From Streptomyces sp. NBC_01454 (GTDB lineage Bacteria; Actinomycetota; Actinomycetes; Streptomycetales; Streptomycetaceae), in assembly GCF_036227565.1 (NCBI RefSeq), contig NZ_CP109460.1, positions 2,108,001 through 2,172,000 on the forward strand: DNA of 64,000 nt, given 5' to 3'. Positions within the stretch are counted from its first letter, which is position 1; each line of letters starts with the position of its first letter. The position numbers were made by a program, and so were the translations under genes. Below, in pieces: positions 33,724 to 37,738 of this stretch. Below the pieces are notes generated by a model. It did not search any database. It saw nothing but the letters and a program-made list of their open reading frames with translations, and had not been told where the DNA came from.

Positions 33724-34659
33724 ATGAGCGGCGCCAGCGTTCTCTACGACGTCCCCGGGCGGAAGGCCAAGGCGCGCAACCGCGTCTACACCGTCCTGGG
33801 CTCCCTCGCGCTGCTCGGGCTGCTCGCGTTCGCCTTCCTGCGGCTGAACAGCCAGGGGCAGCTCGAACCCGAGGTGTGGAACATCTTCAACAATGCCGGT
33901 GTGCGCACCGGCATCCGCGACGGTGTCCTGACGACCCTCCAGGTCTTCGCGGTGGCGGCGGTGCTGTCGCTGGCGCTGGGCGCGCTGCTCGCGGTGGCGC
34001 GGCTCTCGGTGCACAAGCCGGTCAGCTGGCTGGCGACGTCCTTCATCGAGCTGTTCCGCGCCGTCCCGCTGCTGATCACGATCTACGCGGTGTGGGTGAC
34101 CCTGCTCGCCAACCGGGACAGCCTCGGGCTCGCCGGCAGCGAGCCGCAGTTCTGGGCGCTGGTCATCGGGCTGACCGTCTACAACGGTGCGGTGCAGGCC
34201 GAGGTGCTGCGGGCCGGCATCAACTCCGTGCCGGCGGGGCAGCGCGAAGCCGCCTACGCGCTGGGCATGAGCAAGACGCAGGTCATGATGACGGTGCTGA
34301 TCCCGCAGGCCGTGCGGGCGATGCTGCCGACGATCATCAGCCAGCTCGTGGTGACCCTGAAGGACACCTCCCTCGGCTACATCATCACCTTCGAGGAACT
34401 GCTCTTCACCGCCCGGCAGATGAGCACCAACATCATCGTCAACGGCAACGACACCTATGTCCCGGTCATCATCGTCACCGGCAGCATCTACGTCGGGATG
34501 TGCCTGGCGCTGTCCTCCCTCGCCAACTGGATCGAGCGGCGCGGCCGCCGTACCAGGACCGGTATCGCGGTGGCCTCGGCCGGTGAGCCGGTGACGGCCG
34601 CCGATGCGATGGAGGTGGCCGGCGCGGTCCCCGGCGGGCCGGCGGCCAAGCAGGACTGA
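33724..34659 (+). CDS. gluD: Glutamate ABC importer, permease subunit
   Basis: 311 residues from the ATG at 33724 (GAGGT upstream). It is longer than GluC, with an extra N-terminal helix (23-41) and a hydrophilic C-terminal tail. Permease features are ELFRAVPLLITIYAVW and the EAA loop EAAYALGMSKTQVMMTVLIPQA. It forms a heterodimer with GluC. The gluC-gluD gap is 76 bp and contains an alternative in-frame ATG (33679) without an SD. A long palindrome terminates the operon. Confidence 0.94.
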   Translation: MSGASVLYDVPGRKAKARNRVYTVLGSLALLGLLAFAFLRLNSQGQLEPEVWNIFNNAGVRTGIRDGVLTTLQVFAVAAVLSLALGALLAVARLSVHKPVSWLATSFIELFRAVPLLITIYAVWVTLLANRDSLGLAGSEPQFWALVIGLTVYNGAVQAEVLRAGINSVPAGQREAAYALGMSKTQVMMTVLIPQAVRAMLPTIISQLVVTLKDTSLGYIITFEELLFTARQMSTNIIVNGNDTYVPVIIVTGSIYVGMCLALSSLANWIERRGRRTRTGIAVASAGEPVTAADAMEVAGAVPGGPAAKQD

Positions 34660-34703
34660 GGTCCGCCGGCACGGCCGGGTGCCGCGGCCGGGATGCGTCC
34701 CTT

Positions 34704-34735
34704 CGGAGGCGGTGGCGCCGGCGCCACCGCCTCCG
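34704..34735. terminator. 32-bp perfect palindrome ending the glu operon
   Basis: CGGAGGCGGTGGCGCC followed directly by its exact reverse complement, 44 bp after the gluD stop. In RNA this gives a very stable near-loopless hairpin. No T-tract. Confidence 0.8.
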
Positions 34736-34849
34736 TCACTTGACGCGAGCGGCCGCAGTGGGTTGCATACGCTGTGTGATCGCGCACCGGGCTCCAACTG
34801 CCAGTTCCCGCCTGTCCCGTACATACCAGCGGCCGCGGGGAGCTGCGCC

Positions 34850-36661
34850 GTGGACCCGGTGATCGTCGTCGGGGCCGGCCCGGTCGGCCTCTCCGTCGCA
34901 CTCGCCCTCGCCCGCCTCGGCGTCCCCTGCGTCGTCCTCGACGAGACCACCGGCCAGGAGGACACCCGGCCCGCCCGCACCGCCGTGCTCCGCCAGGACA
35001 CCGCCGCGTTCGTCGGGCGGCTCGGCTGCGCCGAAGCCCTGGAGACCGCCGGCACCCGCTGGACCGCCTGGCGCACCATGCGCCGCCGCCGTCTGCTGGA
35101 ACGCGTCGCCTTCACCCCGCCGGCCCCGCACGGCCCGGCCGCCCCCGCGTCCCCGCTGCATCTCCCCCAACACGCCCTCACCCGCGCACTGCGCGCCGCG
35201 CTCGCCCACGAGAAGCTCGCCGAGGTCGTCACCGGCAGCCGGCTCGCCGCCCTCGAACAGGACGAGCACGGCGTCAGCGCCCAGACCCGCGGCCCCAACG
35301 GCACCTGGTGGCGCGGCAGTTACCTCATCGGCTGCGACGGGCCGCGCTCGACCGTCCGCAAGCTGCTCGGCATCCGCTTCCCGGGCCGGACGGCCGTCGA
35401 GCGGCACGCGGTGGCCGCGCTGCGCTGCGAACTCCCCTGGCCCGGCGAGGCCCTGCTGCACCGCTCCCCGCCCCGGCACGGCGGCGGACCGGGCAACGAG
35501 GTCTCGGCCCGTCCGCTGACCGACCACGTCTGGCGGCTGGACTGGCTGCTGCCCCCGGGGCGGGAACTGGTCACCCCCGACGCCCTGGTCGCCCGGATCC
35601 GCGACTCCCTGGCCGGCTGGACCGCCGACGCCCCGGCGGACACCGCCGACGAGACCGGCGACGGGAGCGGCGGACCGCCCGCACGGGGCCGCGGCCACAG
35701 CCCGCAGGTCCCGCCCTACGAACTCCTCGACACCGGGGTGCACACCGTCCACCACCGGCTGGCCCGGTGCTGGCGGGAGGGCCGCGCCTTCCTCGCCGGG
35801 GACGCCGCACATCTGCTGGGCGCGCTCGGCACCCAGGGCCTCGACGAAGGCCTGCGGGACGCCGAGAACCTCGCCTGGAAACTGGGCCTGGCCTGGCACC
35901 ACGGCGCCTCCGAGCTGCTGCTCGACAGCTACCAGGCCGAGCGGCGGGGCGCGGTCGCGGCCCGGCTGCGCGCCGCGGACCAGGCGCTGCCGCTGCTCCG
36001 CGACGGCGGCGCCGCCCGCTGGCGGACCGTCCTGCCCGGCGCGGTGCGCGGCCGCAGCACCCTGCTGACCGACGGCCACCTGGGCCGCGGACCGCTGGGC
36101 GCACCGCCGGTCTACGCCCGCACCCCGCTGGCACCGCCCGCCGAGCACACCGTCGGGCCGCCCGTCGAGACCCTGCCCGGCGCACCGGTCGCGGAGGTGA
36201 CGGTGACCGCGTCCGACGGCTCGGTGGTCCGGCTGCGCGACCGGCTCGGCCGCGGCCTGCTGGTGGTGCTGGTGGCGCCCGGCACCGGCGTCTGGGACCG
36301 GCGGCACTGGCAGTCGGCGGGCCTGATGCCCCGGTTGGCCGAAGCGGTCGAGGCGCTGCCGATGGACGCCGAGATCCTGGTCACCGAGGCCTACCCGGGC
36401 GCGGCCGCACACACCGTGCTGCTGGTCCGGCCGGACGGCCATCTGGTCACCACCCTGTCCGGTGTCCGCCCGGCCGACATGGCCGCCTGCGCGGACGCGG
36501 TACGCGGCGGAGCGCACGGCCAGGAGGCCGCTGCGGCCCGCTCCCGGCGGTCCGACGGCACCGGGAACTCCACCGCCCCCGGTGACAACGGAGCCGGGGA
36601 GGGAGAGAATTCCGCGGTTGACCCTGTGGGAACCTCCATGCTTCACTCCGAGAATGACTGA
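34850..36661 (+). CDS. FAD-dependent aromatic-hydroxylase-like monooxygenase
   Basis: 603 residues from the GTG at 34850 (GGGGAG 7 nt upstream; the open frame reaches back into gluD without conserved sequence). Class A flavoprotein monooxygenase: GxGxxG in VIVVGAGPVGLSVALALARLG, the TAVLRQDT region, the GCDGPRSTVRK motif and the second FAD motif GDAAHLLGALGTQGLDEGLRDAENLAWKL. The C-terminal about 150 residues resemble the thioredoxin-like domain of phenol-hydroxylase relatives, without a CxxC. Substrate unknown. Its stop overlaps the start of the Cys-rich leader ORF. Confidence 0.9.
   Translation: MDPVIVVGAGPVGLSVALALARLGVPCVVLDETTGQEDTRPARTAVLRQDTAAFVGRLGCAEALETAGTRWTAWRTMRRRRLLERVAFTPPAPHGPAAPASPLHLPQHALTRALRAALAHEKLAEVVTGSRLAALEQDEHGVSAQTRGPNGTWWRGSYLIGCDGPRSTVRKLLGIRFPGRTAVERHAVAALRCELPWPGEALLHRSPPRHGGGPGNEVSARPLTDHVWRLDWLLPPGRELVTPDALVARIRDSLAGWTADAPADTADETGDGSGGPPARGRGHSPQVPPYELLDTGVHTVHHRLARCWREGRAFLAGDAAHLLGALGTQGLDEGLRDAENLAWKLGLAWHHGASELLLDSYQAERRGAVAARLRAADQALPLLRDGGAARWRTVLPGAVRGRSTLLTDGHLGRGPLGAPPVYARTPLAPPAEHTVGPPVETLPGAPVAEVTVTASDGSVVRLRDRLGRGLLVVLVAPGTGVWDRRHWQSAGLMPRLAEAVEALPMDAEILVTEAYPGAAAHTVLLVRPDGHLVTTLSGVRPADMAACADAVRGGAHGQEAAAARSRRSDGTGNSTAPGDNGAGEGENSAVDPVGTSMLHSEND
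36618..36647 (+). promoter_or_regulatory. Candidate promoter for the leader peptide/cdo transcript
   Basis: TTGACC (36618-36623) and TTCACT (36642-36647) are separated by 18 bp inside the 3' end of the monooxygenase gene. A start 6-7 nt after the -10 would fall on the A of the leader ATG (36654), predicting a leaderless mRNA. The -10 match is only moderate. Confidence 0.45.
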
Positions 36662-36740
36662 CCACAGCTCGCGATTCTGGCGGAGGGTCCATCTCGACCT
36701 GGTCCGCTATGCGGGCTGCATGTGTCGTCCCTCCTGTTGA
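36654..36740 (+). CDS. 28-residue cysteine-rich leader peptide upstream of cdo
   Basis: ATG at 36654, TGA at 36738-36740. The peptide has the basic FWRRVHLDLVR pattern of the short streptomycete leader peptides found before sulfur-metabolism genes, and ends in GCMCRPSC. Cys codons are at 36717-36719, 36723-36725 and 36735-36737, the last directly before the stop. The ATG overlaps the monooxygenase stop region (ATGACTGA), with no SD. A GC-rich hairpin begins 17 nt after the stop. I infer a cis-acting attenuator that reads Cys-tRNA supply and controls cysteine dioxygenase, rather than a functional protein. Confidence 0.7.
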   Translation: MTDHSSRFWRRVHLDLVRYAGCMCRPSC

Positions 36741-36757
36741 TCCGCTTCTTCTCCCCC

Positions 36758-36790
36758 GCGCGACCGCCCGCCCCTGTCCGGCGGCCGCGC
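36758..36790 (+). promoter_or_regulatory. Attenuator-like hairpin between the leader peptide and cdo
   Basis: Stem GCGCG-A-CCGCC / GGCGG-C-CGCGC, ten pairs with one A-C mismatch and an 11-nt loop, starting 17 nt after the leader stop and ending 28 nt before the cdo GTG. A ribosome at the leader stop or stalled on its Cys codons would affect folding differently. No poly-T follows, so translational control is as likely as transcription termination. Confidence 0.5.
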
Positions 36791-36818
36791 CTCTTCGCGA
36801 TCACTCAGGACGGTCTCC

Positions 36819-37361
36819 GTGCCCGACGTACGTCTCCCCGCGCGCCCGCACACCCCCGGCCATGACGGCGGGCCCAGCGCGGCCGAACTCCTCGACTTCG
36901 TCCGCCGCAGCGCCGCGGACCCCGAACTCATCGCCGCGCTCCCGCTCGACCCCGAAGGCCGTACCTGGATCCGGCTGAACGGGCCGGGCGGCAGCGAGGC
37001 ATGGCTGATCGGCTGGCCGCCCGGCACCGGTACCGGCTGGCACGACCACGGCGGCTCGCACGGCGCCTTCGCGGCAGCCTCCGGCGAGCTGACGGAACAG
37101 TCGCTCGCCGCCCCGCTGCCCACCGAGGGCTGGAAGACGCTGGAACTGGCCGACGACGTGGACCGGGAGCGCAGGCTCGGCGGCGGCCACGGCCGGGCGT
37201 TCGGCCCGCACCATGTGCACCAGGTGCTCAACACCTCCCACGACACCCATGCGGTGTCGGTGCACGCCTACTACCCGCCGCTGCCGCTGATGCGCCGCTA
37301 CAGCCGCACCGGGGCGGTACTGCGGGTCGAAGCGGTCGAGCAGCCCGAGGAGTGGACATGA
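36819..37361 (+). CDS. Cysteine dioxygenase
   Basis: Oxidises L-cysteine to cysteine sulfinate, the first step of cysteine catabolism. 180-residue cupin from the GTG at 36819 (AGGA 8 nt upstream). The Fe ligands are visible as GWHDHGGSHG (H75, H77) and GPHHVHQVLN (H132/H134). The Tyr-containing C-terminal YYPPLPLMRRY is typical. There is no cysteine anywhere in the protein, so the Cys-Tyr cross-link of mammalian enzymes is absent, as in many bacterial forms. Overlaps the rhodanese start by 4 nt. Confidence 0.92.
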   Translation: MPDVRLPARPHTPGHDGGPSAAELLDFVRRSAADPELIAALPLDPEGRTWIRLNGPGGSEAWLIGWPPGTGTGWHDHGGSHGAFAAASGELTEQSLAAPLPTEGWKTLELADDVDRERRLGGGHGRAFGPHHVHQVLNTSHDTHAVSVHAYYPPLPLMRRYSRTGAVLRVEAVEQPEEWT

Positions 37362-37738
37362 GCGCGGTCGACGAGCTGCTGGCGCAGGCCCGGCGGGAAC
37401 TCGGGCACCGGGTCGGGCCCCGGGAGGCCGCCGCCGTCCAGGAGGCCGGCGGACTGCTGGTGGACATCCGCTACGCGGAGCTGCGGGAGCGCGACGGCAC
37501 CATTCCCGGCGCGCTGATCGTCGAGCGCAACGAACTGGAATGGCGGCTCGACCCGACGGGCGAACACCGCGCCCCCGAGGCCACACACCATGATCTGCCG
37601 GTCGTGGTCATCTGCAACGAGGGCTACGCATCGAGCCTCGCCGCCCTCTCCCTGCGCCACTTGGGACTCCCCCACGCAACCGACCTGACAGGCGGCTTCC
37701 AGGCATGGCGGGAGGCGGGATTGGCGGTGGGGGGTTGA
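37358..37738 (+). CDS. Rhodanese-like sulfurtransferase
   Basis: 126-residue single rhodanese domain from the ATG at 37358, overlapping the cdo stop (ATGA) with SD GAGGAG inside cdo. The sulfur-carrying cysteine is C86 in VVVICNEGYASS. The loop is C-N-E-G-Y-A-S, with Ser where many rhodaneses have Arg. ATDLTGGFQAW is a good family marker. Translational coupling to cdo suggests handling of sulfane sulfur or sulfite formed during cysteine breakdown. Confidence 0.9.
   Translation: MSAVDELLAQARRELGHRVGPREAAAVQEAGGLLVDIRYAELRERDGTIPGALIVERNELEWRLDPTGEHRAPEATHHDLPVVVICNEGYASSLAALSLRHLGLPHATDLTGGFQAWREAGLAVGG

Follow-up and report, generated by a model that had tools for sequence, protein, structure and literature searches.

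A conserved, probably leaderless cysteine leader peptide whose end may mask the ribosome-binding site of cysteine dioxygenase in Streptomyces

RESULTS

A cysteine-ended leader ORF lies upstream of cdo

We analyzed a 64,000-nucleotide (nt) stretch of Streptomyces sp. NBC_01454 (contig NZ_CP109460.1, positions 2,108,001 to 2,172,000; the window), in which a short open reading frame (ORF) with three cysteine codons precedes cdo, a gene of the cysteine dioxygenase type I family, by 78 nt from leader stop to gene start. A GC hairpin stands between the two, and a rhodanese-domain gene follows cdo (Table 1). A first-pass annotation of the same DNA had described a 28-codon, Cys-rich leader lacking a Shine-Dalgarno (SD) sequence, a promoter-like hexamer pair upstream, a ten-pair hairpin beginning 17 nt past the leader stop, and cdo with a coupled rhodanese gene beyond it. 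Reading of the window sequence and the domain matches bears out all of these details; the hairpin arms (36758-36768 and 36780-36790) contain one internal A.C mismatch. The leader Cys codons are codon 22 (TGC, 36717), codon 24 (TGT, 36723), and codon 28 (TGT, 36735), and no SD sequence was seen in the window upstream of the leader ATG.

In the promoter-like pair, TTGACC (36618-36623) is separated by 18 nt from TTCACT (36642-36647), and the ATG follows 6 nt on. Of 160 aligned loci, 151 have a TTGAC beginning at -35, -36, or -37 relative to the leader start codon, and none was found in the other 9; the start codon of the 160 leaders is GTG in 134 and ATG in 26. This spacing fits, but does not prove, a leaderless transcript that would start at the leader start codon. 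The frame of a flavin adenine dinucleotide (FAD) monooxygenase (34604-36661) crosses the promoter-like pair, and its TGA (36659-36661) lies inside the leader start.

Table 1 Features of the leader-cdo locus (window coordinates; RBS, ribosome-binding site)
Feature	Position	Strand	Details
Promoter-like pair TTGACC-N18-TTCACT	36618..36647	+	+1 placed at about the leader ATG
Cys leader peptide ORF, 28 codons	36654..36740	+	ATG 36654, TGA 36738-36740; peptide MTDHSSRFWRRVHLDLVRYAGCMCRPSC
In-ORF RNA hairpin over codons 9-18 (RRVHLDLVR core)	36678..36707	+	Synonymous randomization
Cys24 codon TGT, proposed sensor	36723..36725	+	TGT in 161/161 cdo leaders
Anti-RBS: codons 26-28, stop, next five bases	36729..36745	+	Complementary to 36797-36813; one C.C mismatch in the window
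GC hairpin, 10 pairs, between anti-RBS and RBS	36758..36790	+	z scores over 76 loci
cdo RBS and flanking helix, GCGATCA..CAGGACGG	36797..36813	+	CAGGACGG in 157/161
cdo, cysteine dioxygenase type I family, 180 amino acids	36819..37361	+	GTG start; PF05995, E 3.7e-45
Rhodanese-domain gene	37358..37738	+	PF00581, E 1.7e-13; ATGA overlap with cdo

With the NCBIfam model NF042934 (cis_reg_atten, putative leader peptide), the leader scores 33.5 bits, where the curated cutoff is 27, and is thus of a kind already known, the actinobacterial Cys leader peptides; the first-pass annotation had likewise placed it among the short ORFs with an RxHVDLxR-type core and a Cys-containing end. A six-frame search of the genome with NF042934 gave 32.0 bits for the cdo leader, and none of 14 control genomes exceeded the cutoff. 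The core RRVHLDLVRYAGCMC, with Cys24 six residues beyond its Arg, is a trait common to the NF042934 members seen, the six-residue rule being our reading of those members and not NCBI wording. A second NF042934 trait, conservation upstream of a sulfur-metabolism gene, was also found here (see below). Membership in the Ms5788A family was ruled out by a score of 18.4 bits against NF042933 (leader_Ms5788A; cutoff 45), and identity with an Rfam element by the lack of any covariance-model match to 36400-37000 at E values up to 1.

The leader is conserved upstream of cdo

A CDO match at an E value of 1e-20 or better was present in 132 of 150 genomes of the genus. Loci from 92 of the 132 were examined, 90 taken from the top of the ranking (30 plus 60) and two low scoring (L244 and L245). 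The leader was present in 89 of the 90, the exception (L016) being cut by a contig end; L244 had no leader, and L245 had a different one. With the best 80 named Streptomyces loci added, partly from the same genomes, the leader was found upstream of cdo in 167 of 170 loci. At two of the three loci without it (L016 and L159), upstream DNA is missing, and at L131 no leader was seen within 700 nt. Removal of identical sequences left 161 loci. From Trp to stop, the Streptomyces cdo leader always measures 20 codons, and it was also found at 35 of 35 further same-genus loci (L182-L216, again partly from the same genomes). Third-base identity at four-fold sites was 0.843 over leader codons 9 to 28 and 0.574 in cdo (3,000 random pairs, 158 loci); the best of 171 20-codon windows of cdo reached 0.713. 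Leader codons are thus conserved well above cdo, more than by chance.

Outside the genus, cdo leaders carry one to five Cys residues. Of 20 loci fetched from other genera of the family, 16 matched a Cys leader (L249, L251, L253, and L254 did not), as did L232-L235 but not L231; the leader also stands upstream of cdo in L236, L237, and L238, which belong to other families of the order. The leader pattern was unmatched at paralogs and distant homologs (L217-L230) and at L239, L240, L241, and L244; L239 has a short Cys-rich frame that was left unscored, L240 is a partial gene, and L241 lacks upstream DNA. As a label for all distant cdo leaders, NF042934 is ruled out: of five tested, one passes (L245), one reaches 19 bits, and three are unmatched. 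At diverged cdo-plus-rhodanese loci (L242, L243, and L245), a different Cys leader, RHHVDxVRVASALCP, constitutes a second leader-cdo association.

One cysteine codon is invariably TGT

Codon 24 is the fully invariant Cys codon of the 161 cdo leaders (Table 1). Codon 22 is TGC in 135, TGT in 25, and TAC in 1, and codon 28 encodes Cys in 146. All 27 distinct NF042934 leaders from the window genome and 30 family loci (the window genome contributing seven NF042934-type leaders, the cdo leader included) use TGT for the Cys located six residues past the core Arg, and their remaining Cys codons are TGC 27 times and TGT twice. At class level, 26 of 27 loci fit the pattern (L320 does not), and all 24 distinct leaders have TGT for the equivalent Cys; other Cys codons of these leaders comprise 27 TGC and 9 TGT, and those of long frames 194 TGC and 50 TGT. 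When leaders were pooled by distinct 14-residue core (L034-L040 and L269-L325), the equivalent Cys was TGT in 33 of 33, and a Cys directly before the core Arg was TGC in 14 of 15 distinct cores. The 30-locus sets are the best-scoring places returned, with the downstream gene identified for a minority, and both the 19-position model and the search pattern in part impose the fixed core-to-Cys spacing. Taken together, these counts suggest that the invariant TGT after the core is a codon rule across the leader family.

The leader end is complementary to the cdo RBS

The leader-end 8-mer CCGTCCTG, present in 127 of 161 loci, is complementary to the RBS CAGGACGG; the window leader ends in CCCTCCTG, with one mismatch to the RBS. 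A second short helix can form between bases after the leader stop and bases before the RBS, and its sequence classes, GATC/GATC and TTCGC/GCGAA, co-occur in 70 of 74 tree rows (the tree held 90 of 159 distinct sequences, and 74 rows bear both traits). Among divergent loci, complementarity occurs in other letters in L236 (CCCGTCCG/CGGACGGG, with 1.5% of shuffles as long) and in L238 (GTCCTTCGC/GCGAAGGAC, 0.75%). In L238, whose cdo is a distant one, the leader (ALCCCLCCRPSL) contains five Cys codons, and its anti-RBS is perfect over 9 bp and of different sequence. An anti-RBS in every cdo leader is ruled out, none being seen in the 13 of 24 divergent loci whose leader stop lies more than 140 nt from cdo; in these long-spacer loci, cdo starts were picked by SD scoring, and L257 yielded no start.

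Within the ORF, codons 9 to 21 fold with a mean z score of -1.86 relative to synonymous randomizations (z < -1 in 50 of 58 distinct sequences). The GC hairpin is kept as structure, with a mean z score of -2.57 and 69 of 76 loci below -1 (every second of the 161 loci was taken, limited by length). No examined locus has five or more T residues in the 8 nt after this hairpin, and the absence of a U-run rules out an intrinsic terminator or transcription attenuator. Because the hairpin structure is kept without a U-run, we infer that control likely acts at translation initiation, possibly backed by Rho. The GC hairpin is not the switch and seems to bring the anti-SD and SD sequences together.

Predicted RBS pairing depends on ribosome position

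Folding with the ribosome footprint masked was applied to 156 of the 161 loci, leaving out five with a stop-to-SD distance above 140 nt. Pairing of the RBS core (AGGA) with the anti-RBS was 0.94 without a ribosome and 0.84 with Cys22 in the A site, falling to 0.03 with the ribosome at Cys24 and to 0.00 at Cys28 or the stop. The corresponding values for the window were 0.99, 0.74, 0.00, 0.00, and 0.00. When the 3' edge of the footprint was set at +11, +13, +15, or +17 in 50 loci, pairing with the ribosome at Cys24 was 0.65, 0.17, 0.03, and 0.00, respectively, and pairing at Cys22 ranged from 0.56 to 0.94 (0.20 to 0.74 in the window). Slowing of Cys decoding in a toy traffic model raised the open fraction to a plateau near 0.67 when ribosome drop-off was absent; inversion, with the open fraction below the replete level, appeared only at the highest drop-off tried (0.2 per s) combined with the slowest Cys decoding. 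Six further leader operons of the genome, folded with the same masking as a control, were uninformative about the sign, their RBS being distant from the leader or their starts ill-defined.

The enzyme and its Streptomyces coelicolor ortholog

The nearest solved chains to the CDO protein are 8qfl-8qfr and mammalian CDO, with which its HDH motif and SVHAY stretch align. We take these two elements to have catalytic roles and the 8qf entries to be ergothioneine dioxygenase. A rhodanese homolog lies downstream of cdo on the same strand in 88 of 90 loci. By position and annotation, the S. coelicolor ortholog is SCO5772, which is called a homologue of a putative cysteine dioxygenase in PMC3087709. 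Its neighbors are given as recX (SCO5770; PMC6637917) and gluD (SCO5774; PMC4848846), and the recX-cdo-gluD order matches the window, where recX and recA were recognized by eye. The window genome also has a second CDO-like gene (G000:C1:4975794-4976222; L229) with 35% identity, upstream of which no such leader was matched.

DISCUSSION

A translational switch that may respond to cysteine

The cdo leader is genuine, is conserved, and belongs to a known leader family. Its anatomy is a variant one, with an anti-RBS encoded at the end of the leader, and its target is unusual. We think it somewhat probable that the leader acts as a cysteine-responsive translational attenuator that is on when cysteine is short. 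The leaderless mRNA would start at the leader ATG, and as long as the leader end is free of ribosomes, the anti-RBS would pair with the cdo RBS across the GC hairpin and keep cdo closed. When Cys-tRNA is scarce, we infer that ribosomes would linger on codon 24, a rare UGU (as well as on codon 28), covering the anti-RBS and freeing the RBS; cdo and the coupled rhodanese gene would then be translated, and the mRNA may escape Rho. With ample Cys-tRNA, quick ribosome passage would let the RBS close again. Under this anti-RBS model, breaking CCGUCCUG is expected to make cdo constitutive. Opening on Cys-tRNA scarcity would give the sign expected of Cys assimilation operons.

That stalling turns cdo on, the canonical starvation sign, is the direction we lean toward, because the invariant Cys24 sits where a stall is predicted to break RBS pairing and because the traffic model and coinduction under H2O2 point the same way. 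In H2O2-treated wild-type S. coelicolor, ssuABC, cysNDCHI, cysA, cysM, and SCO5772 (8-fold) are listed as up (PMC4991794, Table 1). The presence of SCO5772 in that list indicates, indirectly and at the transcript level, that cdo moves with the cysteine-assimilation genes. If it frees sulfite from a thiol for assimilation, the dioxygenase would make sense in a cysteine-starvation regulon.

Several points weigh against this reading. It is difficult to see why a cell short of cysteine should destroy it. Because ribosomes terminating at the leader stop disrupt the pairing as much as stalled ones, the anatomy alone leaves the sign unfixed, and a stall at the nearly invariant Cys22 (160 of 161) leaves the pairing in place. 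Once released, the SD core is on average only 0.29 unpaired, versus 0.03 without a ribosome (about 0.50 versus 0.01 in the window), because it finds other pairing partners. Statistics for the window alone are weak, and the case rests on conservation across relatives: the in-ORF hairpin of the window is matched by 23.5% of synonymous randomizations, and its leader-to-cdo fold has a z score of -1.45, with 19 of 200 shuffles as stable. The synonymous anti-SD test reached 5% or less in 2 of 153 loci, and 70% of randomizations match the window; it is weak because the amino acids RPSC already encode most of the anti-SD. Covariation in the second helix amounts to only 3 and 2 tree changes, with which the paired test cannot reach significance, and independent covariation is unproven because these changes are too few. 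Complementarity beats 95% of shuffles in just 3 of 24 divergent loci (L233, L236, and L238); all 13 loci in which leader stop and cdo are over 140 nt apart fall short of that level. Among published expression data, the authors of the H2O2 study credit HbpS-SenS-SenR (PMC4991794), and feather (keratin) medium is reported to raise two cdo genes 50.2- and 8.3-fold (PMC7181669), a rise that, in genes unmatched to the present locus, could fit cysteine excess.

Alternative explanations

The first-pass annotation had proposed the opposite sign, a "cysteine-overflow valve" in which, under Cys scarcity, ribosomes would stop at Cys22 and the anti-RBS would close cdo, and in which, with cysteine plentiful, ribosomes reaching the stop would open it. 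Such logic suits an enzyme that removes cysteine, and it draws on the near-invariance of Cys22, on the masked folding (0.84 paired at Cys22 and 0.00 at the stop), and on the rise of cdo1 and cdo2 reported for feather medium (PMC7181669). A stall at Cys22, alone among the Cys codons, leaves the pairing, which gives this reading one foothold, although a weaker one in the window (0.20 to 0.74, depending on the footprint edge) than on average (0.56 to 0.94). However, the fully invariant codon is Cys24, always TGT, whose stall breaks the pairing. Inversion in the traffic model was confined to a drop-off of 0.2 per s with severe starvation, and SCO5772 rises alongside the assimilation genes under H2O2 (PMC4991794). 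We regard this inverted sign as unlikely. The first-pass interpretation is supported in that the Cys leader is conserved and probably leaderless, the hairpin is kept, and the structure could control cdo, and the conservation that it looked for across Streptomyces was found for the leader, for Cys24, and for the hairpin structure; the inverted logic is unsupported, since the Cys24 stall is predicted to open the RBS and SCO5772 rises with the assimilation genes.

Two further possibilities appear less probable still. In nascent-chain arrest, an RxHxDLxR core in the exit tunnel would pause the ribosome on Cys-tRNA or a sulfur metabolite, with peptide and codon acting together. The core does stand six residues before an always-TGT Cys ahead of different genes of the window genome and in other families of the class, and its synonymous codons vary across those leaders, but in cdo leaders it is also constrained as RNA and the fixed spacing owes something to the model and pattern; we consider arrest quite unlikely. 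Ordinary transcriptional control, for example by GlnR or SenR, could set cdo expression, the leader serving basal control only or acting via Rho. The Streptomyces venezuelae ortholog is reported to rise more than 5-fold upon nitrogen starvation in a GlnR-dependent manner (PMC3087709), and the H2O2 response is reported as absent in an hbpS-senS-senR mutant (PMC4991794). Yet the conservation of leader codons greatly exceeds that of cdo itself, more than basal control would require, and we hold this explanation to be very improbable.

Extending the preferred starvation sign to the whole family, we offer a broader and doubtful proposal: all such actinobacterial leaders might read cysteine via a fixed, wobble-decoded UGU six residues after an RxHxDLxR arrest core, as hybrids of attenuator and arrest peptide, and cdo-rhodanese might belong to the same-sign starvation regulon, the dioxygenase serving sulfur salvage (sulfite from some thiol) and not cysteine disposal.

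Relation to known systems

The cdo leader shares the core and the Cys with NF042934 but differs in its catabolic downstream gene, its two additional Cys residues, and an anti-RBS formed by its final codons. Mycobacterial polycysteine upstream ORFs (uORFs) are reported, in the title of Canestrari 2020, to be cysteine-responsive attenuators. Being leaderless, ending in Cys codons, and preceding cys genes, these uORFs resemble the present ORF, itself probably leaderless. A Cys uORF before the cysA2 ortholog of Mycobacterium smegmatis has shown ribosome occupancy (PMC4633059); the mycobacterial Cys uORFs named in that paper (Shell 2015) precede orthologs of cysA2, nirA, and Rv0485, not cdo. Seliverstov 2005 (PMC1262725) described leaders with Cys runs ahead of cys operons that, as here, lack terminators, but these belong to Mycobacterium, Propionibacterium acnes, and Bifidobacterium longum cbs, and their mode of regulation is called unknown there. 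The LEU element of actinobacterial leuA in the same paper offers a precedent for codon-to-SD pairing, its Leu-run codons forming a stem with the SD box; it differs in responding to leucine and in being a compact pseudoknot, whereas here Pro-Ser-Cys codons of a Cys leader serve as the anti-SD. Attenuators of the trp type likewise combine regulatory codons in a leader peptide with alternative RNA pairing, but here there is no terminator U-run and control is predicted at the RBS. No description of a cdo leader was found in the literature searched, a search that did not cover the UGU codon rule.

If our reading is correct, a cysteine-degrading enzyme is wired into the Streptomyces cysteine-starvation regulon, which would call its assumed role into question. 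The leader-end anti-RBS, invariant UGU, and cdo readout would then make a clean system for establishing the mode and sign of actinobacterial Cys leaders, and the UGU rule makes a simple prediction for all members of the leader family. Should the inverted sign hold instead, the same leader family would serve as both starvation switch and overflow valve.

Elsewhere in the window genome, NF042934-type leaders precede sulfite reductase, cysO-cysM, thiosulfate sulfurtransferase, and ABC permease genes, and leaders below the cutoff precede flavin reductase and SDF symporter genes (L035-L040 for these six). By annotation only, the first four targets resemble H2O2-up genes of S. coelicolor. Flavin reductase is not in the H2O2 list, and the SDF symporter may resemble the H2O2-up SCO4498 (proton transport protein).

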